DNA from: Golubevia sp. BC0850
Lineage: Eukaryota > Basidiomycota > Exobasidiomycetes > Golubeviales > Golubeviaceae
Assembly: GCA_012976225.1 (NCBI GenBank)
Contig: JAAVVG010000016.1
Location: 124,001 to 188,000, forward strand
Reading direction: 5' to 3'
DNA length: 64,000 nt
Numbering within the stretch: position 1 is the stretch's first letter; each line of letters begins with the position of its first letter. Shown one piece after another: positions 9,958-63,925 of the stretch. The notes beneath the pieces were generated by a model that saw nothing but the letters and a program-made list of their open reading frames with translations, ran no database searches and was not told where the DNA came from. Made by a program: the position numbers and the translations under genes.

Positions 9958-11566
9958 TCAGATGGCTGCCAGAGGGGACGAAAAGCGAAAAGTTTTAGAC
10001 TTCAAGATCTCTGATCGTCTGCTTTTCTCGAGTGAGAGGCCGACACTGTACCTCAAAAACTTACTTTGTACTCCATATTCACTCGACTGCAGCTTACTCT
10101 CCTCTCTCATCCCACCGGCTCGTCGTTGGTTTTTACGCTCTCTCAGATCAGATTGTGTCTCCCTCTCTTCCCCTAAGCCCCCCCTCTCTACTTCCGATAT
10201 CTTGAGATCGCTCAGTAGCAGTACGACTTCTAATCATGTTGATGGAGTTCTGGTCTTCGATGAGTCTAGGAAATTGTTCTGTGAAAGTGAATTGCGTCCG
10301 TCGAGTCAGATTAGATCCAGAGCTGAGAGCGTCTCCGTGCCAGTCGTCTCTGGCATTGAGGACAGAGAGCATTCCAAACGAGTAGAGGGGGGAGAGTATA
10401 GGACTGAAAGAAAAACTCAAGGACCTGTTTGAGATCAAACTAGTGGCGGTCTAGTGTTGTTAAAGCATTGATGGGAAGGAGAAGGTTTCAACACAAACAT
10501 CACTGGTAGCTTCTGTTGATCGGGATACTCACTCGAGGAAGCTCGACAACCAACTCTACTACCATAACTATAATAGATACAATTGTTACTCCACAAAGGA
10601 CGTAGCTCAGTCTAGAAAAGCCTTTCTTGACGTAGATCGATTCTTTTCTCATCCGTCTGAGCCAAAATAGAATGAAAGAAAGAAGAGCGAGGTCCATGGC
10701 CACATCGAGAGCGAACATGGTCTCAAAGTAGAAACCTACCCCAGAGAGAAACCAGGGAAGAGAGGAGGGGCGACATATTGAGACCGTGTGGGCCTAAGAG
10801 AGGGTTCACTCAAGAGGCCCAAAGGTATCAAGCTTCTCGCAAATCTCGCTCCGCAGATCTCGCTCACCGGTTTCAAGAGTAGGCCAGCTACCATTGACAT
10901 TGGGTCTAATCCTTGAAATGACGCCAACAGCAATGGCCACGCCGAATGAAGAGAGAATTCCGAACCCAATGGAGAGGGTGACCCAAAGGGAACCAGATTC
11001 CAGCATCGCATTCAGGCAGACTAGCCAAAAGAACTGGGTCAGCCTTAGAAAAGATGGAGAAAGAAGAGGATGTAAGGCAGGCTGTGCGTATAGTCTTAGA
11101 TGCGACTCTCTCGACTCACATGATGACTACTGAATACAAGATCACTTCATTCCCAAGCGCTGAGCCAGTTTTCGATGCAGGTAGTATGGTGAAATAATCA
11201 ACTCCGAAGAACCAATTGTAGTACACTTGATGGGACATCGAAGCTGCGTTGACGGCCATCACGACCAAAAGCCAAACTTTCGTCGGTAAAGGATCGTTTT
11301 TAGCTACAAACTTGAAGTAGTTACGCATCTGGTGAAGGTTATTCCAAAACATCATGAGTCCAAAACTTTCACGGAGAGAATAGAAGGGATGGGAACAGAG
11401 GGAATGGATTGTAAATGAAGCATGATTTGAATCTTGCATGGAAACCGAAAGAAACTTACATTGAAATGATCAAAGTAGCTGCATAGGCAAGGACCAAGAA
11501 TCGAGTTGCCTCTGTACCAGTGAAAACCGTCGCTTCGAAATCGAGGTCTTCGTTATTGTCACCCAC
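9958..11566 (-). pseudogene. Seven-helix membrane protein, DUF6534-like, copy A (damaged)
   Basis: First of five paralogues. Exons by comparison with the intact copies: 11566-11460, 11365-11120, 11043-10868, 10735-10533, 10450-10065 and 9965-9958. The last codes only two residues and stop (CC ATC TGA). Transmembrane blocks are intact (MMFWNNLHQMRNYFKFVAKNDP, FALDVAMDLALLSFILFWLRR, SPLYSFGMLSVLNARDDWHG). Two faults are visible. The expected ATG position reads GTG (GTGGGTGAC). A run of seven G in exon 5 (about 10177-10184 on the plus strand as C) is one base longer than in copy B, shifting the frame to TGA at 10148 and removing the charged tail. FGINCHQ of the other copies is FWNNLHQ here. It may still make a tail-less protein if an upstream start exists. 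Family assignment rests on the C-terminal helix pattern. Confidence 0.6.
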
Positions 11567-14462: not shown

Positions 14463-16057
14463 ATGAGCGAGATCAACGGAACCTTCTATTACTCCAATGG
14501 AGAGGTGACGCACTATTTAACCATTTCCTTTGCAGGTGCGTTGATCGTTTCAACGTGAGTAGCTTCGTGGAATCCAGCTTGGAGTGTGGAATGTTTCCCA
14601 TCTCCATTGTCCTTTCTTCTCCTCTCCCACGACAGAGTCGGTCTTATGTTGTTTGGAATTAACTGTCATCAAACACGTAACTATTTCAAATTTGTAGCTA
14701 AGGAAGATCCCATTCCGACGAGGATTTGGATTTTGGTAGTGATGGCTATTAACGCAGCTGCCACCTTCTATCAAGTGTACTACAATTGGATCTGCACTAT
14801 AGAATGGTTCAATCCATTGGTACATCCTAGTCAATCGGCTGGAAATACGGTAGTCTTGTATTCTGTGGTGATCATGTGAGTTCAATCATCAGAAAGGCAG
14901 AAGGTAGAATTGAATCTGTTCTCTCCGAACACGGCAACGACTCATCTCTTCCCCAAAACATCTCCAGGCTGGTCCAATCGTTTTGGCTAGTCTGCTTAAA
15001 TGCGATGTCACCGTCTGGGTCTCGATCTTTTCTTTGGATCACGGGTCTCACTGGCTTTGGAATCATCTCTTCATTTGGCTTCGCCCTTGCGGTGGCAATC
15101 GTGACTAGAATAAGACCCAATCCCAATGGTAGCTGGCCTACTCCAGAAATCAGTCAGTGAACAGTTCGGTGCTGGTAGGTTTCTTGGGGGCGAAGTTTCT
15201 TTGGAACCAAAGTCTTACATAGTCTTCTCTGGTCCCTTCAATCTCTTCTCACTCCATCGTTGGAACAATTTCAGACATTTATTTAGAAACATCGTTCGCT
15301 CTTGATGTGGCTACGAATCTCGCTCTGTTATCAGCCATTCTATTTCAACTCAGACGGATGAGAAGAGAATCAGTCCACATCAAGAAGGGGTTTTCGAGAT
15401 TGAGCTACGTGCTCTGCGGAGTAACAACGATCTCGATCGTGATTATAGCTGTAGAGGTGGTCATTGAGCTTCCTCGAGTGAGTACAACAAGAAAAAGAAG
15501 CGAATAATACAGATGCCTGTGATTCTAAAAACTTCTCTTACCTCTGCTTTGACACCACCAGACCCACACTAGTCTGTTTCCAAGCAGGGTTTTCAATCTT
15601 TCCTTCGCCCCTATCATCTCTCCCCTCTACGCCTTTGGAATGCTCTCTATTCTGAACGCAAGAGACGACTGGCACGGAGACGTTCTCAATTCTGAATCTC
15701 GTCAGACGAGGCGGACACAATTCACTTTCACAGAACAGTTCCCTTCGCTAATCGAAGACCAGAACTCCATCAATGTCGCGAGAAGCCGTGTTACTACCGA
15801 ACAGACTCAAGATTTTGGAAGTCGAGAGGAGGGCTTAGGGGAAGAAAGGGAGACACAATCTGATCTGAGAGAGCGTAAAACCCAACGACGAGCCGGTGGG
15901 ACAGGAGATGAGAGTGAGATGCAGTCGAGTGAATATGGTATTCAGAGTGAGTTTCATCAGGGTAGATTTGAGTTTGGAGGGGGGAGGCAAGCGCGGGACT
16001 TACTTCAGTAATTCACAACGGCCTTGTTTATCTCTCCCTCTTCTCGCAGCCATCTGA
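14463..16057 (+). CDS. Seven-helix membrane protein, DUF6534-like, copy B
   Basis: Intact paralogue, 370 aa, six exons: 14463-14554, 14636-14875, 14968-15152, 15275-15477, 15562-15946 and 16050-16057. Seven hydrophobic segments can be drawn, starting with FAGALIVSTVGLMLFGINC and ending with FAPIISPLYAFGMLSILNARDD, followed by a charged tail of about 80 residues rich in Arg, Glu, Gln and Thr (RETQSDLRERKTQRR) that ends SSEYGIQTI. The final exon supplies only T(part)-I-stop. DUF6534-type proteins are membrane proteins of unknown role common in basidiomycetes, and the LYxFGMLxxLNAR motif fits their last helix. Exon 5 is close in DNA sequence to copy A on the other strand, indicating recent duplication. 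The ATG was chosen because exon 1 is 92 nt in both copies B and C. Confidence 0.75.
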
Positions 16058-22976: not shown

Positions 22977-25921
22977 ATGAACTCTTCTGCCATTCGTCGT
23001 GCCTCTAACTGGACTTTGGCCAATGGTTCTTCCATTCCAAAGCTTGGTCTTGGGTGAGTTATAAGCTCAAAGGGTGCTGCTCCATCTCTGCTGTCTTCAG
23101 CTCTCTGTCCTTGGTGCTTCTTTCAACCCCTTCTTCATCTTTGAAAAGCTTTTTCGAGACTTGACTAACACAACTACATTCTCTTGCTCACGCAGGACTT
23201 GGAAAGCTCCCAAAGGAGAAGTTGGACCAGCTGTTTCTCACGCTTTGAAAACTGGGTTCAGGCATATCGATTGTGCTTGGGCTTATCGCAGTAAGTTGCA
23301 ATGAGAGACTATGGAGTCGTATGATCTTTGGACTTCGTGTGAACTAAAGAGGGAATAGTAGGCTGATTCTCAATCGTGCTCTCCATCTCATTCTTCTTTC
23401 TCTCAGATGAGGATGAAGTTGGAGCCGCCATCTCCAAATCGGGAGTTGCTAGGAAAGATCTTTGGCTGACCAGTAAATTGTGGAATTCTTTCCATCATCC
23501 TGATCATGTTGAGAAGGTGAGTGAGGTCAGAAGATTGCGAGGGTCGAGGAATCAAAAGAGTTTTGGATAGAAAGAAAAGTCGGAGGGCGGACTCTACCAA
23601 GCTTTATGAAGCTCTGACTACCCAGCGGGGTCTCCAAAAGATCCATCAGATAAGACAACCGAGACATGGAGGAAGAAGGCAGAGGTTCTGACTGATTGAG
23701 GTGGCATAAATTCGATCTTTCCCCAGTCCAACTGACCTAATCCCCTTATCTCTCCTCTTCCTGTCCCTATTCGCTTCTCTAGGGTCTTGATGCTACTCTC
23801 AAAGATCTAGGAACCGATCATCTAGATCTCTTCCTCATGCATTGGCCCGTCGCTTTCTTGAATTCTAAGGGTTCCCAGATCGCATCGGTCAAAGGTCAAG
23901 ATGGGAAGCCAATCGAAGACGTTGCCATGTCAAACAATCTCTCAGCAACCTGGTCCAAGATGGAGGAAATGGTCCAGAAAGGAAAGATTCGTAACCTCGG
24001 AGTCTCGAACTTCAACATTCGTCGTACAGATGAGCTCTTGAAGGACGTCAAGATCAAGCCAGTTGTCAACCAAGTCGAAGTCAATTGGGGAGTTCCAAAC
24101 GAAGAACTCTTGAACTGGTCAGAGGCTCACGGAATCAAGTTGGAAGGGTACAGTCCTCTAGGAAGTAGTAACAATGTTGGAAGATATCTAAAGGAGGAAG
24201 TCATCAAAGACGTAGCTGAGAGAAACAACTTAACTCCAGCTCAGGTTTATGTTGCTTGGAACTTAGGAAGAGGTATCATCAGTCTTCCAAAAAGTGTCAA
24301 TCCAGCTAGGTTAGAGGAGAACTTCAAGGTTATAGACGTTGAACTATCAAAGGAGGATATCGATCATATCACTAGAGAAGCTCAGAACAAAGGAATCGAA
24401 AGAACTGTAGATCCAACTGAGGCTTGGGGAGTTCAACAAGATATCTTCGAAGATGGTGAAGATCAGAGGAAAGCCGGTGAACTAAAGACTGAAAGCTTCG
24501 AAGCTCCTCTACCTCACGAGAACGCAAGCAGAGAACATTACCTCGACCCAAACCACTCCAACACTCCTTCTGGATCAAGATCTATGCACACTCAAGCTGG
24601 ATCCTCTTCAATTAGATCTTCAAATCGTTTGACTCCAGTTCAACAACTTCTTCGTAACGCCTCTCTATCTTCGTCACGCAACTTCTCAACTTCCACAAAA
24701 GCTTCAGCCACAACGGCCGAAGCTCAACCTCCAACCGCAAGTCAAGCACCTGGAATTTCAAACTCTTCTCTTCTACTTCGCACAATTGACAAAGATGCCA
24801 AATCGACTCCAGGACTCAAATGGACCAAAGAAGATGACAGATCTGGTGAAAGTAGGAAGATGAACATGTACACGGTGCGTAGCTCTTCGGTAGTTTCTGA
24901 ATCAGCATCAGCATCGGTAGGTCTATCAGCATCAGCATCAGCAGGTAGAATGGCTTCATACGCCTCCTTCTCTCAGCAGCAGCAGCAGCCTTCCTTTGCT
25001 TCCTCTCGCTCCTTCTCCACTAGCTCGAAGTCAGCTTCGTCTGCATCAGCTGCTTCAGTCTCTTCGATCGATAAGATTCCGTCTTCAAATCTACCTCCAA
25101 CTTTGACTTCTCTTGAAAGAAGTTCAACATCAGCCAAGACTTTACAGAAGAGAGTTTACCCTGAGAGGAAGAGGTTCTTGGTCGAACAGTATTCAAGACT
25201 TCTAGATGAAAGTAGCGTCGTTCTAGTCCTACAACATGGAAATCTAAGTGTGGGAGAGTTGAGTAAAATGAGAAGTGAAATCAAGTCAGTCGAAATTCCA
25301 GGAGCTAGTGCTGCTGAGGGAACCGAAGGAGCTACCGAGATCAGAAGAAAAGCAAAGTTTACTATGGTTAGATCAGGTTTGATGTCACCAATTCTCAAAT
25401 CTCATCCAAACAAGAATGTCAAATCTTTAAAGCCAATCTTTACTGGTCCAATCGCTTTAATCACGATCCCATCCCCGTCAAACTCTTCTGATGGATTTTC
25501 TCCCAAGTACATTTCATCTTTAATCTCGATTCTAGACAAAGCTCTAGGTCTCAGAAAGGGAATGAGCGGAAAATACGATCTTAAAGACGGTTCCGTCACT
25601 TCAAATCCAAGATTGGTACTATTAGCTGCTATGGTCTTAAACGGAAACGTTAGAGATTTAACCAAAGCTGAGAAGAGAGTGACGAATAGCAAGCTTGGAA
25701 CTTCTAGTTGGACAGAGAGAAATGCTAGGGTTCTAAATGTTAACGCTTTGAGAGATGCAAGTAAATTACCGGAGTTGGAAACTCTCCGAGCTCAAATCAT
25801 TGGACTTTTATCTAGTCCTGCAAGTCAATTAATGGGAGTACTAAGCCAAGCAAGTGGAATGAACTTGGCTATGACTCTAGAAGCTAGGAAGAGAGACTTG
25901 GAGGAGAAGAAGAAGGAATAA
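22977..25921 (+). CDS. Aldo-keto reductase whose frame continues without a stop into BCKDHB exon 1 and mL10
   Basis: NADPH-dependent aldo-keto reductase. Exons 22977-23053, 23196-23290, 23407-23516, then 23783 onward. The catalytic tetrad is visible as Asp51 and Tyr56 (HIDCAWAYR), Lys81 (LTSKLWN) and His114 (LMHWPVA). Other barrel motifs are LGVSNFN, VVNQVEVNW, YSPLGSSN and ISLPKSVNPARLEENF. The domain ends near AWGVQQDIFEDGEDQ (about 24475), where relatives stop. Here no stop follows. After about 36 linker residues the frame enters the presequence exon of BCKDHB (ATG 24584) and then mL10, ending at 25921 (806 codons). The real reductase end is therefore uncertain: a fusion protein, splicing into BCKDHB exon 2 at 24875, or premature polyadenylation are all possible. 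Confidence 0.8.
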
Positions 25922-28078
25922 GTAGGATCTACCATTAGGAGAGGGAAGGTGGATTTAGACCGAGGTTAAGACAATTTGCCTACAAGTGAGATGAGATTCA
26001 AGTCTTCCAGAACTTTTGTCATGACGAGGTTCTTCGCAGCCTGCATCAAGATCTCAAGTCTGTCATTCAATTTCTCCTACTTCAGAACTCTTCGCAAGAT
26101 CTTTCTTCGTCTCATTCTCTTCTCTACTCCAATGTTCACCAGATCACCACATCCCTCCACCGCATTCTCCCTCTTCAAGTCACTCCTTCTCAAGTTTCTG
26201 TTCTCTCCCCAGTCACTCTCAGTTCCAGTTTCTCGTTCACGTATTTTAATCTCTTGTTTCCATCGCACTTTCGATTTCCCTTCTTTCGCTTCCCACTAAC
26301 CCCGCCGCTGCTGTCTGTCTGCGTGTTGCTGCTGATGCTGATGCTGATGCTGCTCCTTGATGCTCTTGCTGATTCTACTGACCTACTGACCCTTTTCATC
26401 TTAACTAACATCTTCCCTGCTTCTCCTTTTCCCTTCCTTCCTCTAACCTTCACCGCTGCTTATCTTTTGGATCTACGAACTCTTCTTGGACGGCTTTGAA
26501 CTCGAAGGCTATCAGAGACGCTCAATCTTTAGCTCTCGGATCTGACGACACCGCCTGTGTCTTTGGGGAAGATGTTGCCTTTGGTGGAGTTTTCAGATCT
26601 ACTATGGGATTGGCTGAAGAGTATGGAAAGGAAAGAGTCTTCAATGTGAGTGCTCGATCCGACGCGTTCGAAGACTGATGCGAGCTGGGACTTTCTGACT
26701 CTTCCGTGAACCTCTTTTCTGGCCAACAGACTCCTCTTTCGGAACAGGTGAGTCCCAGAGTCGATGGAGTCCAAGCCTTGCGGCCGTCCTAGATCGCGAC
26801 TCTGATTTCGCGCCCTCTTCTTCTTGCTCTCTCCTTCTTCCTATCAGGGAATTATTGGATTCGGGATTGGTATGGCCGCCATGGGTCATACAGCCATTGC
26901 TGAAATTCAATTTGCAGATTAGTGAGTAGCAGGATCCTTTCGGAGTCACTCTCGAAACGACGCTGATCGACTTCTTGCACCCCTATTCTTCCCTTTCCTC
27001 TCTCGCAGTATCTTTCCAGCTTTCGATCAGCTCGTCAATGAAGCCGCCAAGTACAATTATCGTTCAGGAGGTCAACACAAAGCCGGAAAGCTGACTGTTC
27101 GTTCTCCTTGTCAAGGAGTTGGTCACGGAGCCCTGTATCACTCTCAAAGTGTTGAGCAATTCTTCATGCCAGTTCCAGGTCTCAAGGTGAGTGTTTGTCC
27201 AGCGCTTTCAAGCCTTTTCGTCGTGCAAGCTAAGCTTTCCGTCTTCTATTCTCCTTCAGGTCGTCATCCCTCGTTCGCCGATTCAAGCCAAAGGGCTTCT
27301 CCTAGCCTCAATTCGTGATCCAAATCCAACGATCTTCTTAGAACCAAAGGTTCTCTATAGATCCTCCGTCGAACAAGTTCCTTTAGATGACTTCACTCTG
27401 CCTCTTAGCTCTGCTGAAGTCTTACAATCCGGAAATGACATCACTCTCTTGAGTTGGGGTGCTCCTCTCTATTCCTGTGAATTAGCTATCAACATGCTGA
27501 GGAATCCACCAAAGTCTATCGAAGAACACGTTCCAAAGGAGGTCAGAAATGCCAACGTTGAACTAATCGATCTAAGAACTATCCTACCTTGGGACAGAGA
27601 AAGTGAGTAGAGATTGAGGGTTCAGCTAACCCTGATTCCGATTCCTGACCACTTACCCCTCACTCTCCTTTTCTACAGCCGTCGTAAAGAGCGTCATGAA
27701 GACTGGTCGCTGTGTCGTCGTCCATGAAGCTCCAGTGACTGCCGGAGTCGGAGCTGAGATCGGATCTCATCTTCAAGAGAACTGTTTCCTACGTCTTGAG
27801 GTGAGTGCTGCTGTTTGAATCATCGAGACCGATATCAAATCCTCGCTGAACTTCTTCTGTCCTTCTCCATTGCTCTTCCAGGCTCCTGTCTGCCGTGTTG
27901 GTGGCTGGGATTCACCTTTCCCTCACGTCCACGAGACGTTCTACAAGCCAGAACAGATTAGAATCGTCGATGCTGTGAGTTCTGCCGGGTCTCATCTCTC
28001 CGATCTTGTTCAATCTAGCTGACTTCGATCTTCTTTTTGTCAATATCTTTCCAGCTCGTAAGAACCCTCTCTTACTGA
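24584..28078 (+). CDS. BCKDHB: 2-oxoisovalerate dehydrogenase E1 beta subunit, mitochondrial (BCKDHB)
   Basis: E1-beta of the branched-chain ketoacid dehydrogenase complex, which degrades leucine, isoleucine and valine in mitochondria. Nine exons: 24584-24874, 26508-26645, 26730-26747, 26848-26921, 27009-27186, 27260-27602, 27679-27800, 27882-27974 and 28055-28078, 426 aa. Exon 1 holds an Arg/Ser-rich presequence ([17 protein letters not shown]), [11 protein letters not shown] and RKMNMYT, and joins exon 2 [10 protein letters not shown] to restore the family motif KMNxYxAIRDA. Later motifs are [23 protein letters not shown] in an 18-nt micro-exon, [26 protein letters not shown] and [16 protein letters not shown]. 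Intron 1 is 1,633 bp with donor GTGCGT and contains mL10. Its acceptor, at 26507, lacks a strong pyrimidine tract. Confidence 0.9.
24950..25921 (+). CDS. MRPL10: Mitochondrial ribosomal protein L10 (uL10m), nested in BCKDHB intron 1
   Basis: Single exon, 323 aa from ATG 24950. The first 60 residues look like a presequence ([19 protein letters not shown]). The L10 domain begins at [19 protein letters not shown] and includes [42 protein letters not shown] and the C-terminal [22 protein letters not shown] with [15 protein letters not shown], which match bacterial and mitochondrial L10 (ribosomal stalk base). It lies wholly inside the first intron of BCKDHB on the same strand and is in frame with BCKDHB exon 1 and the upstream reductase. 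No promoter is obvious. Expression could be by internal initiation, by retention of intron 1, or as part of a longer protein. Lack of introns, unlike its neighbours, would fit a retroposed copy. Confidence 0.85.
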   Translation: MASYASFSQQQQQPSFASSRSFSTSSKSASSASAASVSSIDKIPSSNLPPTLTSLERSSTSAKTLQKRVYPERKRFLVEQYSRLLDESSVVLVLQHGNLSVGELSKMRSEIKSVEIPGASAAEGTEGATEIRRKAKFTMVRSGLMSPILKSHPNKNVKSLKPIFTGPIALITIPSPSNSSDGFSPKYISSLISILDKALGLRKGMSGKYDLKDGSVTSNPRLVLLAAMVLNGNVRDLTKAEKRVTNSKLGTSSWTERNARVLNVNALRDASKLPELETLRAQIIGLLSSPASQLMGVLSQASGMNLAMTLEARKRDLEEKKKE

Positions 28079-28667: not shown

Positions 28668-31600
28668 TCACCCCCTTCGAGGCAACCTTTTCAGATTTCT
28701 TCCTCCTAAAGGGTTACTAGATGGAGTACTAGTTCCCATATTGAACATGATAGGAGCAGCAGGAGGGGTTGCTGGTTGCTGCTGTTGAGGTTGTTGACCA
28801 AAAGGCGACGAGGCTTGTTGAGGTTGAGCAGCACTGAAGGCGAAGGTAGTTGGACTTGAACCGGTAGTCGGACTCGTCACGCTTCCACCACCGAATCCAG
28901 GACTTGGCGCATTGAAGGTGAAAGGTACATTTCGTTGTTGAGGCTGAGAAGTCGGAGCAGGAGCTCCACCAAAGACGAAGGGCTGAGATCCAGCAGCACC
29001 AGTTCCAGTTCCATTCGATCCGCCCGCTCCGAACGCAAATACACCCTGCTGAGGTTGTTGCTGTTGATGTTGCTGTTGCTGTTGACCACCAAAAGCGAAC
29101 CCGAATCCGTTCACAGGCGGTTGGCCTGTTGGAGTAGAAGTTCCAGAGGGGCCTCCTCCGAATGGACCAGTTCCACTAGCAGGAGCCTGGAAAGTGAAGG
29201 TGCCTGCAGAGCTGGTTGGAGCAGGAGCTAGGGATTGATTGCTGCTTGCTCCGAACCCTCCAAAGACTGGAGCCGGAGAGGAGGTCGCTGGCTTCGAGTC
29301 GTTTGAACCGACCCCAGAGCTGAAAGGAGTATTCGGCTTGGGAGCAGCTGCAGCTGGAGCACCGAAGTTGAAGACTGGAGCAGGAGGAGGAGCAGGAGGA
29401 GGAGCTGAAGAGTTGGAGCTAGAGGCCTGATTGGAATTGAACAGAGCTTGAGGTGACACGTCCATGGCGCTTCCGTCTCCACCTCCCGAGTCACCGGCCG
29501 CAGCTGGAGCCGAAGTCGAGGGAGTTGAGAAAGCAAAGGGAGTAGACGCCTTCTCTGCAGGCTGTGGAGTTCCGAACGTGGGCGTGGTCTCCTTCTTCTC
29601 TTGTGAAGCTCCTTCTGTCGATGATGGCTGACCAAAAGCGAACGCTGGAGGTTTGCTAGCGGGTGCTACAGCAGGAGAGAAAGTGTTGCCAAAGAAGTGA
29701 GGGACCGAGCTCTGAGTAGTTGGCGAGGAAGTGGCAGGCTGAGCACCGAAAGAGAAGGCTTCAGATCCGGCAGAGCGCTTCTTGGAACTTCTCTCGCCAA
29801 CCGCATCTCCAGAGTCCTTGCTGTCGTCTTCGTTTGCTCTCTTTCCGAATCCAGCGAACGGCGTACTTGATCCGTTGGTATTGCTTGGTAGCCCAGCGAA
29901 AGAAACCGCAGAGCTCGGAGCAATCTCAGCGCTGGGACTTGGTTTGGCGAAGATGTTGGAATTTGATGGAGGGGCACAGCCTGTCGATGCTGGAGGGCCG
30001 AAACTGAAAGATGGAGCGGGAGAAGCCGCCGTGTCCTCTGTCTTGGCTGGAGGCTGCCCAAAAGAGAAAGCTGGAGCTGGAGCTGGCGAAGGAGAGGCAG
30101 ACTTGGCTGTCGCGGCACCAAAGAAGATAGGCACTGGACCAGATTTCCTTTGATTGTCGATCTCTGCGCTGGGCTGAGTGGTACCCGAGGTAGGAGCTTT
30201 GAAGAAATCCGAGGCTCCGGCAGCAGAAGCAGGAGCTGGGCTCGGAGAAGTCGAAGATGAAGATCCAGCGACATTGATAGGAGTGAAGGAAAAGGCGACC
30301 TTTGGCCTTGGCTGCTCGATGGGAGCTGTCTTGAAGGAGAAACTTCCCTTTGAAGCTTCTGGAGCTGGAGTAGAAGACTCTTTCGGAGCTGCATCAGCGC
30401 GAGGTTCCATTCGCGAGAGCAGTGAACTTGAAGATGTTTCTGCAGTTGTTGAGGTAGCAGCTGTGGCAGAAACGGGCGTAGAAGTAGAAGCAGGAGGTTG
30501 AGCTTGGTTGGTACTCGTACTCGAGCTTCCGAAAGTGAAACCTTGAGGGAAGGAGGTAGGTGGAAGTTTGATAGCCTTGAGAGCTTCCGTGCCTGGCAGA
30601 TCCTCTTCCTCATCTCCTTCATCGTCCAAGCCGAATCGACCCGCCTTGCCACCTTGTTGACCATCGGACCGTGCTCCTCCAGATTTCTCGTGAGTTCTGA
30701 ACTTCTTCTCCGCTCCTTGTCTCAAAGAGCTGCTTGTGCGTTGGGGGGTCGAATCGTCCCTGATAGAGAATTTACTTGATGAGACCGAAGGATTGAGAGG
30801 GCTAGGAGCGAAGGTAGTTAAAGTGAGGTTCTTCTTGGGAGAAGATTCTGGAAGAGGAGGAGCTTCATCTTCTTTCTCGGCCTCCATCTCTTCATCTTCG
30901 ACCTGAGCTTTGGCTTTGCCCTTGCCTTTTGATGGACTTTTGCGTGTCGAAGGTATCTCTGCTTGCTTCTGCTTTCCTTTGTCTTTCGAAGCAGGAGTTC
31001 CGTTAGTCGAGGTGGTCTGACGAGTAGATCTGGTAGATCGAGCTGGGGCGTTGACTTTGGAGGATTCTTGATTCTTGACTTGAGATCTGGTTTGACGTTT
31101 GACTGGTTGCTCCACAACTTCTTCTGCCTCCTTTTCTTCGTCGTCTTCTTCTTCTTCCGGCTCATCGTCGACCTCCATTCGATTCTTTCTGGATCTTGAA
31201 GGAGTACCTCTGTTGCTACCTGGTCCAAGACTTCTGTCTCTTGAAGTGTCCACCTCATCTGCACCTCTACGGGTTCTCGACCTCATGCTACTGCTCTCCT
31301 TCAAGGCAGATTTTCTAGAAGCGTTCAAACCTCTCTCTCTGGCCCTGGTAGCTGGAGCCACGCTGGCTGATCGAGATCTGTCTCTTCTGAAGGAATCAGT
31401 CAGGAATGAGTCCGAGTGAGTAGTACGGTCAGGTGCTGGAGATGGCACTGGGATGATTCGAGCGGCAGCATTTGCCTGGAGAGAAAGTAGAGAAAGTAGA
31501 GGAGGGAGAGGAGGGGAAGATCAGACCCTTGAACGAGCATGAGTAGGAACGCAGAGTTCGAAGCATACTCACCAGGTGGGAACGAGTACTTCCTTCTCTT

Positions 31601-56072: not shown

Positions 56073-57910
56073 TCAAATCTGACACTCAGTCAATTGAGGA
56101 GACATAACACCTGTAACAGAAGATAGAGAATAAGGTTAGCTAGGGAGATCGACCTTCGGAGGTTCAGAACAAAGAACAACTGTTCGTCTTCATGAGTTCA
56201 TCTCTAGAACCATGGCCCAGACTCACCACTCAAGAACAGCTTCTTCTTCTCAACATCATAGTTGGCCACAGTGATTCCACTAGCGACACTTCCATCATCT
56301 TCGAACAACTTTTCGACATTGTACTTCTTTCCAAAGAAAGCATCTTTGTCAGTGTTGAGAGTGATTCGTAGAGAAACAGTTGCAGCTGGTTTGTTAAGTG
56401 GATCCGAGAAATGCTCGAGGGTTTGAAGAATCTTTGGGAATCCAGCAACTAAGACTGATCCATCAGCGGCTAGATTTAGGTTATCGGCTGGGTCTACAAG
56501 AAGGAGGGAGAAGGCAAGAAATGTTAGTGAACGAGAGAGAAGGCAGCGTCGCAGGGAAGAGGTTGAAGATGCTTACATCCGGTGTGAATCTCGTCGAGCT
56601 AGAGGTAAAAGAGTTGAGAAGAAGGGAAGTGAAAACAAGAAAGAGGTTAGTGAAGAGGTCTCGAACTTCCCAATCTCCAAATCTTCAGATCAGGAACTCA
56701 CGAGAACCAAACTCTTATCAGCTTGTAATTCAAATGATCTAACAACTCCCTGGGCACTAGAAGCCGCGAAATAAACATTTTTCTGTTGTCCTTTGATCAA
56801 ACCATTTGGGAAGGCGAGCTTATTTTTGGTAGCATTCTTGCAACCCTTAGGATCACAATAAACAATATGAGACTTAGGCATAATTAAGTCCAATCCTCTA
56901 AGAGCACCTAGCTTCTCTCCATGATCATTAGTAACCAAGAATGAATCGGCATCTACAGGAGCGACCATATTTGGGGTAACCACGAGGGGACTCGAATAAG
57001 TTCTAATGTGATTCATAGAATCAGATCCTAGAGTAGTCTCGAAAAGTTCAACAGTAGAATTAGCTCCATAAGTTTTACCATCTAACTCATTTCCAGCTGG
57101 ATCTAAATGAGGACGATGATTGTTCAAGAAGATTCTTAGAGTTGGTTTTTCTGAGGAGAAATCTACGACTTCCACTCCGATAGAGTGAAGGTGATATTGT
57201 CCTTCTCCTTTGGTTCCAGAGAAATCCTTTGGTTGAACTTTCGTGATCCTGGAAGATGGAGAACCTGAACCTCTGGTATCATAAATTGCGACGTAGTCGC
57301 CTGCCAGAGGTTTAGTGAGATGATCGATAGCTGGTAACCAACTTTTACGACCTTCTAGAGTCGAACAGGCTAAGTAGAGGAGACCTGAATCCTGGTGAAG
57401 CCAAGAATCTGAGGAGGTGGTGAGGCAGTGAGAGAAGGTGAGCTCGATGGAATGCGGGGTGGAGGGTAATGAGACTTCCAAGCTTCCTGCTCCTTCTGAA
57501 CTCACCTTCGCAATTAGCGAGCTCTGTGAGAGAGTGATTGAATAGGTAAGATGATTAGTATGAGGTGTATTTAACCAATGGGATGAGTAATTCTGAAGAG
57601 AGCTCTACTTCTTCTGGATGCCTGCCTGCTCCATTCTCTATCGCAGCTCTCCTGCTCCGTTCATCCAACCCTCTTCCACGCTTGCCGGTCATGAGACTCC
57701 ATTACTGCTCCCACTCCCACGCACTCCCCGATCTACCTTGACTTGCGAAGCTGCCAACTCGGACTCACCTGGGATCTTGAGGCAGTTTCCATTATTGATC
57801 AGTTCGAGCTTCCTGCCAATTCCCAGGGTGTCGATCCAAACATCCTTCAATACTGCAGCACCGATAGCTAGAAGGAGAATTGGAACTGCTAGAAACGCTG
57901 CTAACATCAT
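56073..57910 (-). CDS. Paraoxonase/arylesterase-like protein, copy 1
   Basis: Six-bladed beta-propeller esterase family (serum paraoxonase/arylesterase type). Exons 57910-57769, 57523-57506 (an 18-nt micro-exon, ELANCE), 57408-56702, 56598-56577 (22 nt), 56493-56227 and 56110-56073 give 397 aa. Motifs: an N-terminal membrane anchor (FLAVPILLLAIGAAVL), CEDSWLHQDSGLLYLACS, GDYVAIYDTRGSG, FLNNHRP (PON-type FxxNxHRP), NSTVELFE, FLVTNDH, FAASSAQGVVRSFE, PADNLNLAADGSVLVAGFPK and EDDGSVASGITVANYD, ending GVMSPQLTECQI. The DNL and TNDH asparagine/aspartate positions fit calcium ligands. Fungal substrates are unknown. Same length and exon plan as copy 2. Confidence 0.85.
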
Positions 57911-59273: not shown

Positions 59274-61016
59274 TCAAGGCATTTGACAGACGGTGAGAGC
59301 TGGGCTCATCAGGCCTGGAAGAAGACGAAAGGCGACGAGGTGAGTCGAAAAAGACCTATGAAGCTTTTTAATTCGGTTTAACTCAACAACATAGCGATTT
59401 AAAGAATCAATAGAAAGGAAACTCACCAGATAAATACAACTTACGAGTCCTAACGTCATAAGCAGCGATAGTCGTTCCACTAGCAACATTTCCATCATCT
59501 TCAAACATCTTCTCGACAACTATTGAGCGAAATATGTGAAGAAAAAAGAATTTGTCAGCTGGCCAAAGCAAATCACAAGCAAAAGATTGCGAACTCACTC
59601 CACTGTCTTCCTGCAACTTTATTCCTTCTAATCCTCAAGATTGTAGTTGGAGAGACCACGTTCTTTGGATCCTTGAAATGAGACAACGTCTGAAGGGCTT
59701 TCGGAAAAGCAGCGATCCAGATATCACCTGCTTCGTCGACGTTGAGATTATCCGCTGGGTCTGTTCCGAAGGGTAGGGACGGCGGGGGAGGAGAAGAGGA
59801 AGTCAAATGCCCGTTCACATGTGAAGTATTAAAATGTTGAGTTCGAATACTGACATCCTGTATAGAGTTTCTCAAGCTGATGGTAAGAAAGTAAAGGGCG
59901 TAGAACAGAGAAGCTGTCAGACTCTTCTCGAAGAAACCTCTTTCAAGCTCCTCACTCACCAAGGTTAGAGAGTTGTCTTCTTCCAGCTTCAAAGTTCTGA
60001 CATAACCTTGAGAAGAACTAGCTAAGAAGAAGACTCTCTTATCATGATTAGATCTAACCAATCCGTTTGGAGCAGGAGCTTTCAAAAAGGAAGGGTAACA
60101 TCGCTCTTTGTTGCAGAACGTAATGTCTCCTCTTGGAAGTAACGATTCAAAGTTTCGCATGAAACCTGTCTTGTCTTTATGATCATTAGTAAAGAAGAAT
60201 GAATCATCGCCAACTGGTTCAATGAAGTTTGGAGTTCTAATTCTTCTGTCGTTCGAATAAGTGTACAGATGCTTCATAGAATCTGACCCCAAGACCGTTT
60301 CGAACAGCTCGACAGTCGAGTTAGCTCCATGCTTGTTACCATCTTGATAGTTACCGTGAGAATCCATTGACGGTCTATGATTGTTCAGAAAGATCTTGAG
60401 CGTTGGCTTGGAAGATGAAGAGGTAACTTCAACACCTATCCCATGGAGATTCAACTGACCTTCACCTCTATTTCCATGAAAGCCTTCAACTTTAATTCTG
60501 GTGATTCGACTAAAGATTGGACCTGTAGATCGAGTGTCAAAGATCGCGACGTAATCTCCTGAAGGTGGTTCTTTTGTTGAAGAGAAGATTGACAAGGCTG
60601 GAACGTATTTGGACCTTGAAATAACCGATTCTGAACAGGCTAGATAGAGAAGTCCAGAATCATGATGGAGCCATGAGTCTGAGAAGAAGAAAGAGTTGAT
60701 TGAGCAGAGGGAACGAAGTGAAGAGAAGAGACTAGAGAGTGAAGACCCAATGACATACCCTCGCATGCCTGCAACTCTGTGTATCCAGGAAATAAAGAAC
60801 GCCAGAAGAGATATCAGATCAAGCCAAAGGAAGAGGAGAAGAAGAGCTATAGCCTATAAGGCGTCTGAGGAACTCACCGGGAACTTGAACACAATCTCCG
60901 TTGTTGAGAGGAAAAACCTCTCTCATGACTCCCAGAGTGTCGACTATAAAGTCTTTCTTCAATCCAATAGCTCCTGCAAGGAGAACTGCCAGTAGCGTTA
61001 CGAATTGACTCCACAT
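59274..61016 (-). CDS. Paraoxonase/arylesterase-like protein, copy 2
   Basis: Exons 61016-60878, 60777-60760 (18 nt, ELQACE), 60678-59960, 59876-59855 (22 nt), 59760-59599, 59519-59427 and 59314-59274 give 397 aa, the same as copy 1 but with one additional intron where copy 1 has a single 267-nt exon. Motifs: an N-terminal hydrophobic segment (FVTLLAVLLAGAIGL), CEDSWLHHDSGLLYLACS, GDYVAIFDTRSTG, FLNNHRP, NSTVELFE, FFFTNDH, FFLASSSQGYVRTL, PADNLNVDEAGDIWIAAFPK and EDDGNVASGTTIAAYD, ending GLMSPALTVCQMP. The two copies are clearly diverged, so the duplication is old. Biochemical substrate is unknown. Confidence 0.85.
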
Positions 61017-61797: not shown

Positions 61798-62323
61798 ATG
61801 CAATTAGTCAAATTCACTTTGCCATTAGCCATCTTGGCCGTTTTGGTTTCTTCAGCTCCAGTCCCATCTTCGAACGTGAGTACAATCATCTCTGACGACC
61901 TATCACCGTGTTTTCGGAGTCTCTGATCCTGGCTTTCTTCTTTGTCTTCTTCAGGAGCAAGACGTGCAATCCAATGTCCATATGGAAGCTCGTGGGATCA
62001 TAGAAGTCGATTACGACTTTCCAGTAAGTTTCCATTCTCCCTATGGTCTGTTCTCAACCTTTAAGAGTTTTTTGGGGGGCCTCTGTTTGATCTAGAATCC
62101 TTTCTGACTGTAAACCTGAAACCTCCTCTGGCTCTCTAAACGCTTACAGTCGAAACAAGCGGACAAAAGGGGCAAAGGGCAGGTCCACCCTTCTGTCATT
62201 CCCAATTGGATTCTCCAAGAGTTTCCCACAGACCAACCGGGCTCCTCCAGACCCGTAAAAAACTTTTTTGTCAATGGTTTAAAGGCCATTGGCCAAGGGA
62301 TCAAAAAGATTGTCACTGGTTGA
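61798..62323 (+). CDS. Secreted precursor with Kex2-type site and cationic amphipathic C-terminus, copy 1
   Basis: Three exons, 61798-61875, 61955-62023 and 62149/62150-62323, 106 aa. Signal peptide MQLVKFTLPLAILAVLVSSA, then a short acidic propiece (NVHMEARGIIEVDYDFP). The third exon begins SKQADKR, a dibasic Kex2-like site, followed by GKGQVHPSVIPNW, a middle section and the basic amphipathic end VKNFFVNGLKAIGQGIKKIV-TG. This layout, prepro then a basic peptide released after KR, is that of a processed secreted peptide. No known family is recognised. Paralogue 1.6 kb downstream. The role (signalling peptide, effector or membrane-active peptide) is open. Confidence 0.65.
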
Positions 62324-63433: not shown

Positions 63434-63925
63434 ATGCAACTCATCAAGTTCACTTTGCCTTTACTTTTGGCGGTTCTGGTTTCTTCAGCTCCAGTCCCAT
63501 CTTCAACCGTGAGTAATCATGAATCTGTTTGGCGCGTCTTTCAATATCTCTAATCTTCCCTTTAATTCAGGATCAAGGTTTGCAACCCAATGTCCATATG
63601 GAAGCTCGTGAGATCCTTGCAGTCGATTATGACTTTTCAGTAAGTTTGATTCCGTTCTAGTCTTTTCAACTTTTGATACCTTTGTTAGAGCCTCTCTTCT
63701 GTCCTTGAATCCTTTCTGACTGTAAAGCTCCTCTGGTTCTTTAAACGATTACAGTCAGAACAAGCGGACAAAAGAGGCAAGGGGCAAGTTCACCCTTTGG
63801 CCCCTCTTCAAGTTATCACTCAAACCCAGCAAACCCGACCAGGCAGCTCCAGTCCCATAAAGAATCTTTTTGTAAACGGTGCAAAGGCCGTTGGTCAAGG
63901 GATCAAAAAGCTCATCTTTGGGTGA
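63434..63925 (+). CDS. Secreted precursor with Kex2-type site and cationic amphipathic C-terminus, copy 2
   Basis: Three exons, 63434-63508, 63571-63639 and 63755-63925, 104 aa. Signal peptide MQLIKFTLPLLLAVLVSSA, propiece NVHMEAREILAVDYDFS, then SEQADKRGKGQVHP and the basic end IKNLFVNGAKAVGQGIKKLI-FG. Intron positions are identical to copy 1. The signal peptide, the HMEAR block, the ADKRGKGQVHP processing block and the last 22 residues are conserved, while the middle of exon 3 (APLQVITQTQQTRPGSSS) differs. This pattern suggests selection on the processing site and the amphipathic tail. Function is unknown. Confidence 0.65.

Follow-up and report, generated by a model that had tools for sequence, protein, structure and literature searches.

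In grasses, the rps14 gene, which is of mitochondrial origin, lies within an intron of sdh2 and uses the sdh2 targeting peptide, with alternative splicing giving rise to two mRNAs (PMC1543663). In yeast, the introns of RPS17B and RPL7B contain zipper stems, which join a donor-proximal region to a region before the branch point and shorten the effective intron; the stem of RPL7B is needed because its branch point is non-consensus (PMC12350175, PMC12311795). The rule given for yeast zipper stems sets a limit on spacing and allows at most 5 bulged nucleotides (PMC12350175). In fungi, the proteins SKI7 and HBS1 are both made from one gene by alternative splicing, and go back to one ancestral gene (PMC3597508). 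The Cryptococcus genome paper, in its accessible parts, mentions intron retention and does not mention nested genes (PMC3990503). Our statements on these systems, here and below, apply to the accessible parts of the papers cited.

We describe here a locus of the basidiomycete Golubevia sp. BC0850 which, by analogy, has its nearest precedent in layout in sdh2-rps14 and its nearest precedent in mechanism in the yeast zipper stems. The window, that is, the whole stretch of DNA that we analysed, is 64,000 nucleotides (64 kb) long, and all features of the locus are on its + strand. The core coding region of an aldo-keto reductase (AKR; 22977-24466, with exons at 22977-23053, 23196-23290 and 23407-23516 and from 23783 on) is followed by an in-frame linker (24467-24583) and by exon 1 of BCKDHB, the gene for branched-chain E1 beta (24584-24874). 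This exon encodes a presequence and N-terminal E1 beta residues, with RKMNMYT at its end. Intron 1 of BCKDHB (24875-26507; 1,633 nt) then contains the coding sequence of mitochondrial L10 (uL10m; 24950-25921). The coordinates and the nested, same-strand, in-frame architecture are confirmed. The short introns and the gene content of the window are in keeping with a fungus, probably a basidiomycete. An earlier note on this DNA had described the nesting, the strand, the frame and the exon pairing correctly; it had missed the in-frame AKR without a stop codon and the complementarity of the intron ends.

As in sdh2-rps14, a nuclear gene for a mitochondrial enzyme carries, in an intron 3′ of its presequence exon, a gene for a mitochondrial ribosomal protein, and a splicing choice would separate the two products. 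The plant precedent had been named in the earlier note, and its layout, its shared strand and its open frame from the presequence exon are indeed matched here (PMC1543663). Unlike in sdh2-rps14, we see no evident splice into uL10m, which has a presequence-like start of its own; in addition, the frame extends through the upstream AKR, and the intron ends can pair. Like the yeast zipper stems, the predicted helix in intron 1 links a region after the donor with a region before the branch point, and its spacing agrees with the yeast rule for some branch sites. However, the longer yeast zipper introns are mostly 400-500 nt, with no protein-coding gene mentioned in the loop in the accessible parts of the papers, whereas here a loop of about 1.38 kb holds uL10m. 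The arrangement also resembles the polycistronic transcripts of mushroom-forming fungi in that adjacent same-strand genes would share one transcript, as we propose here, but the polycistronic ORFs have stops in all frames between them (PMC4503453), while here there is no frame-0 stop from the AKR to 25921. SKI7/HBS1 is alike in that one fungal locus gives two proteins, and differs in that BCKDHB and uL10m are unrelated and uL10m is nested in an intron. The earlier note knew of no fungal case of this nested pairing; likewise, among the literature matches listed, whose coverage mostly lies outside subscription journals, we found no fungal mitochondrial ribosomal protein gene in a host intron.

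Nine joined exons from 24584 to 28078 yield a complete BCKDHB of 426 aa. Exons 2-9 (26508-26645, 26730-26747, 26848-26921, 27009-27186, 27260-27602, 27679-27800, 27882-27974 and 28055-28078) are supported by the similarity to PF02779/PF02780 and to human E1 beta. In Pfam, the product has both transketolase domains, PF02779 and PF02780, and the E1 beta domains are complete. Its alignment to human E1 beta (1dtw_B; E=8e-129) is ungapped at the junction of 24874 with 26508, and the ungapped match also requires exon 3, which is an 18-nt microexon encoding TPLSEQ. The ungapped alignment, together with the GT/AG ends of the intron, bears out the previously proposed joining of exon 1 (donor at 24875) to exon 2 at 26508. 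Since the frame of exon 2 has no ATG between the nearest upstream in-frame stop and the exon, exon 2 needs an upstream exon. We looked for a different first exon closer to exon 2 and rejected it, as there is no in-frame ATG there and positions 24860-24874 already align without a gap; by eye, the three translated frames contain no KMN-type motif nearer to exon 2. A search of genome contigs with exon 6 returned four loci, all bacterial, which we left aside, and no BCKDHB relatives were found in viral contigs. Downstream of BCKDHB, and convergent with it, is a long minus-strand ORF (28668-31448) rich in FG-type repeats, presumably nucleoporin-like.

Intron 1 is unusual among the introns of the locus. 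It is roughly six times as long as the longest of the ten other introns modelled there, and its splice score is 0.8, compared with 5.7-8.1 for those ten, on a simple scale that was set by hand after inspecting those introns. None of 69 introns predicted in the window has the donor GTGCGT found here, and 5 of the 69 have the acceptor AAG, though these frequencies are rough because the intron predictor penalises both departures. The donor is not extreme, as 10 of the 69 predicted introns score no better at this site. It also scores highest among the 22 GTs between 24300 and 24960, a level that about 4% of the 3,138 GTs on the + strand reach. Strong support for the acceptor at 26506-26507 comes from an AG-free run of 277 nt (26229-26505) that directly precedes it, and that exceeds every other AG-to-AG interval in the window (10,668 on the two strands together). 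This run contains branch-like CTAAC motifs at 26405 and 26443, and the acceptor AG is the first AG 3′ of the four branch-like sites examined. A scan with Rfam for a structured RNA gave no match at the gathering score anywhere in the window, intron 1 included. When folded alone, the 5′ end of the intron is no more stable than its shuffles (z=-0.59), and only its pairing with the far end stands out.

The nested gene is intact and intronless, with its own ATG and stop codon, and encodes 323 aa. Its similarity to known families is modest: it scores 33.3 bits against Pfam PF00466, for which the cut-off is 22.8, and matches Neurospora uL10m (6ywe_f) with E=7.4e-8. A complete, intronless mitochondrial L10 on the same strand, as the earlier note had reported within the 1,633-nt intron, is thus present. 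Searches of genome contigs and viral contigs confirmed no uL10m relatives. Of ten polyadenylation-like motifs tried 3′ of uL10m, only one occurs, TTTTAAT at 26244, which is a point against the reading favoured below.

The AKR, BCKDHB exon 1 and uL10m form a single frame of 806 codons that ends in a stop at 25921, according to the ORF list and the spliced model. In frame 0 from the AKR, a linker of 39 codons, BCKDHB exon 1, a second linker of 25 codons and uL10m follow each other with no stop. Upstream of the BCKDHB ATG, the open frame reaches back to 23837 in one listed ORF and to 22977 via splicing. It had been claimed that the frame from 24584 enters uL10m without a stop, and translation confirms this. 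Each in-frame linker run alone is, however, weak evidence. The chance of a linker being both open and in frame is about 8.5% for the first and 10.3% for the second. The 75-nt second linker is stop-free in 31% of dinucleotide shuffles and 41% of 75-nt stretches of predicted introns, which, with one third for the frame, corresponds to a chance of roughly 10-14%. A codon model trained on the AKR to 24466, BCKDHB exons 2-9 and part of one further ORF gave the second linker a score of -0.08 in frame 0 versus -0.88 and -1.34 in the other frames, but this linker is a Ser-Ala repeat, for which the score is little informative. Under the same model, the three frames 3′ of uL10m scored -0.71, -0.52 and -0.44. 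Our own gene finder merges 22977-25921 into one gene of 806 codons plus a stop; it is not independent evidence, since its four rounds of training started from these gene models and introns longer than 450 nt are impossible in it.

The two ends of intron 1 are complementary to each other. Positions 24899-24944, an (ATCAGC)n-type repeat, are predicted to pair with 26329-26375 over about 45 nt, with about 40 bp, and the 20-bp core of this helix (24925-24944 with 26329-26348) is perfect. Such a helix would loop out the whole uL10m gene in a loop of about 1.38 kb. The core is the longest perfect inverted repeat in the window with arms within 3 kb of each other. Near-matches to ATCAGCATCAGCATC occur eight times in the 64 kb, and seven of the eight are at the two arms (three on the + strand and four on the - strand), where shuffling leads one to expect 0.2. 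When the intron is folded as a whole in silico, the predicted ensemble contains about 40 pairs between the arms, with a duplex energy of -69.5 kcal/mol. Forbidding the arm-arm helix costs 32.6 kcal/mol, and the pair probabilities are 0.74-1.0 in the two stretches read out. None of 2,080 sampled spans of 1,633 nt reached intron 1 in end-to-end duplex energy (-80.6 kcal/mol). Of 8,000 random draws of segment pairs, 1 had a better energy than that observed, by way of an unrelated inverted repeat with arms at 10.1 and 15.9 kb. Local alignment of the intron ends scored 58 versus 46 for the best score elsewhere in the window (6,238 windows); two of the 6,238 windows reached at least the observed score, and all six windows that scored at least 53 overlap this locus.

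The window holds other repeats as well. A perfect 34-nt inverted repeat (10131-10164 and 15847-15880, 5.7 kb apart) possibly represents the terminal repeats of a mobile element, and two direct repeats have copies about 1.6 kb apart (28 nt at 61844-61871 and 63477-63504; 24 nt at 61971-61994 and 63587-63610). Two similar minus-strand ORFs, 56690-57505 and 59573-60766, both contain SDSWLH-DSGLLYLACS and look like tandem paralogues; we presume that they are perhaps paraoxonase/lactonase-like.

How well the predicted helix agrees with the yeast zipper-stem rule (PMC12350175) depends on where its boundary and the branch site are placed. With the helix bounded by 24899 and 26375 and the branch A at 26408, the spacing is 24+32=56 nt, which passes. 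Of the 16 combinations of four helix boundaries with four branch sites, 5 pass and 11 fail, the failures including the minimum-free-energy helix with the branch A at 26446 (94 nt) and two CTGAC sites (29 and 37 nt). The full helix exceeds the limit of 5 unpaired bases, and only its outer part (15 bp, 9+6 around a 2x2 loop) fits. The donor-to-branch distance as shortened by the helix is ordinary in comparison with the other introns of the locus, where it is 33 to 224 nt in the eight of the ten that have a CTRAY site. Against splicing aided by the helix, the donor and acceptor are themselves partly paired in the predicted ensemble, with mean unpaired probabilities of 0.41 and 0.42. Furthermore, both arms are simple repeats (Ser-Ala coding in the 5′ arm, an array of branch-like CTGAT motifs in the 3′ arm), so that the helix could be a by-product of low complexity. 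The complementarity of the intron ends would provide the nested arrangement with a plausible splicing mechanism.

The reading that we favour, with confidence only modestly on its side, is that uL10m sits in frame inside the first intron of BCKDHB, that the two genes belong at least in part to a single transcription unit, and that zipper-assisted splicing yields BCKDHB while the lack of splicing yields uL10m; the usage of the two forms is what we infer. Once the polymerase has passed 26375, the helix would form and bring the donor near the branch region, so that intron 1 would be spliced out along with uL10m and E1 beta would be made. If splicing fails, or if a 3′ end forms downstream of 25921 but short of 26329, so that the 3′ arm is not yet made, the resulting mRNA would encode uL10m. 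A transcript that begins a short way upstream of 24584 and stays unspliced would place the BCKDHB presequence on uL10m, with a second cleavage-like motif available for trimming the product, and in a transcript starting after about 24870 uL10m would be read from its own ATG at 24950. Either uL10m product would carry a plausible import signal. We advance more tentatively, and regard as rather doubtful when taken as a whole, the proposal that this is a three-protein, one-frame locus in which an RNA helix around the nested gene acts as a splice switch between BCKDHB and uL10m, with a plausible import signal whether translation starts from 24584 or from 24950.

The earlier note had suggested that intron retention gives L10 a presequence derived from BCKDHB, and the evidence on this point is divided. 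The BCKDHB N-terminus has a net charge of +3, a largest helical moment of 0.53 and an SRNF-STST motif, and its first 30 residues are free of acidic ones. In favour of sharing, the start of uL10m itself is a weaker targeting signal in comparison (net charge +2; largest moment 0.44, at residues 19-32, away from the extreme N-terminus), and three out-of-frame ATGs (24795, 24820 and 24834) lie between the two start codons, so a ribosome scanning from 5′ of 24584 would hardly reach 24950. On the other hand, uL10m begins with an ATG of its own, and its N-terminus resembles a presequence in lacking acidic residues up to position 30 and in containing an SRSF-STSS motif similar to that of BCKDHB. The SR-F-STS motifs of both N-termini are putative processing sites. 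By eye, the common motif looks convergent, and on this basis we rejected a duplication of the presequence between BCKDHB and uL10m. Since uL10m has its own presequence-like start, a shared presequence is not required; it is possible, and compatible with the frame. These same features of the uL10m start are what one would expect if uL10m were a nested gene independent of BCKDHB, with a promoter of its own and its start at 24950, in which case the frame would be coincidental and BCKDHB would simply have a long first intron, whose removal the helix may aid. The start-codon context at -3 and +4 matters for initiation, and the uL10m ATG has A at -3 and G at +4 (the BCKDHB ATG has T at -3); an open linker, moreover, arises by chance in about 10% of cases. 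However, the frame is open over the 1.17 kb that precede 24950 (from 23783), and apart from the 75-nt linker this stretch reads as coding in the same frame, so a uL10m promoter would fall within coding sequence. In addition, a CT-rich leader precedes the AKR, and by eye there is none like it upstream of 24950 or 24584. Weighing these points, we consider a fully independent uL10m gene unlikely, though a serious competitor to a shared transcription unit.

The upstream AKR raises two further alternatives. Its model translates cleanly and is well supported as a member of its family (Pfam PF00248, E=2.5e-51; aldose/aldehyde reductase relatives in the PDB, with E down to 2.6e-67), but its terminal exon has no stop codon. 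The best donor in the AKR tail scores -0.2 versus 2.88 for the donor at 24875, and because the AKR end has neither a stop nor a good donor, its open run is forced. There are 113 joins that would terminate the AKR by splicing; among the 12 listed, the best score is 1.2, from donors without G at +5, which is comparable to intron 1 (0.8) and weaker than the ten other introns (5.7-8.1). The AKR may end in a fusion, a weak unseen splice or a sequence error. If the 806-codon frame is real, a fusion transcript from the AKR promoter would give AKR-BCKDHB when spliced, or AKR-presequence-uL10m when the intron is retained, and the products would later be cut at the internal presequence motifs. Besides the missing stop and donor, this idea is favoured by the first linker, which is coding-like only in frame 0 (codon score 0.05, versus -0.37 and -0.96 in the other + strand frames), and by the AKR N-terminus, whose net charge is +4 and whose first 30 residues are all non-acidic. 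The gene finder also joins 22977-25921, subject to its training on the same models and its 450-nt limit on introns. But the AKR N-terminus, with a largest moment of 0.37 versus 0.53 for BCKDHB, has no clear targeting helix, so E1 beta would hardly reach the mitochondria as part of a fusion. Fused mitochondrial precursors do occur in fission yeast. Among the literature matches listed, titles and abstract openings contained no such case, and we know of no AKR-E1 beta fusion. We hold the fusion to be quite improbable. The analysis is based on a single sequence, in which one wrong base could have removed an AKR stop, and the other two frames of the first linker hold 1 and 2 stops, while frame 0 holds none. 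The three-gene frame would then be partly an artefact, with BCKDHB and uL10m unaffected. Against this, the AKR, BCKDHB and uL10m are in all other respects undamaged, with no frameshift in about 3.2 kb of coding sequence, and we judge an assembly or base error very improbable.

The nested, helix-flanked arrangement that we favour also carries a warning for annotation, as a gene finder that limits intron length, such as ours (450 nt), joins uL10m to the AKR and the BCKDHB presequence as a single gene and leaves BCKDHB truncated. The choice between retaining and splicing the intron is open to test by compensatory changes in the two short arms. If transcripts agree with the proposed mechanism, the locus would be a fungal counterpart of plant sdh2-rps14 with a concrete RNA mechanism, in which a zipper stem loops out a protein-coding gene. 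It would illustrate how a nested gene can be accommodated in an intron where the genome is compact and its introns are short, and a subunit of the mitochondrial ribosome would be tied to the catabolism of branched-chain amino acids via a single RNA decision.
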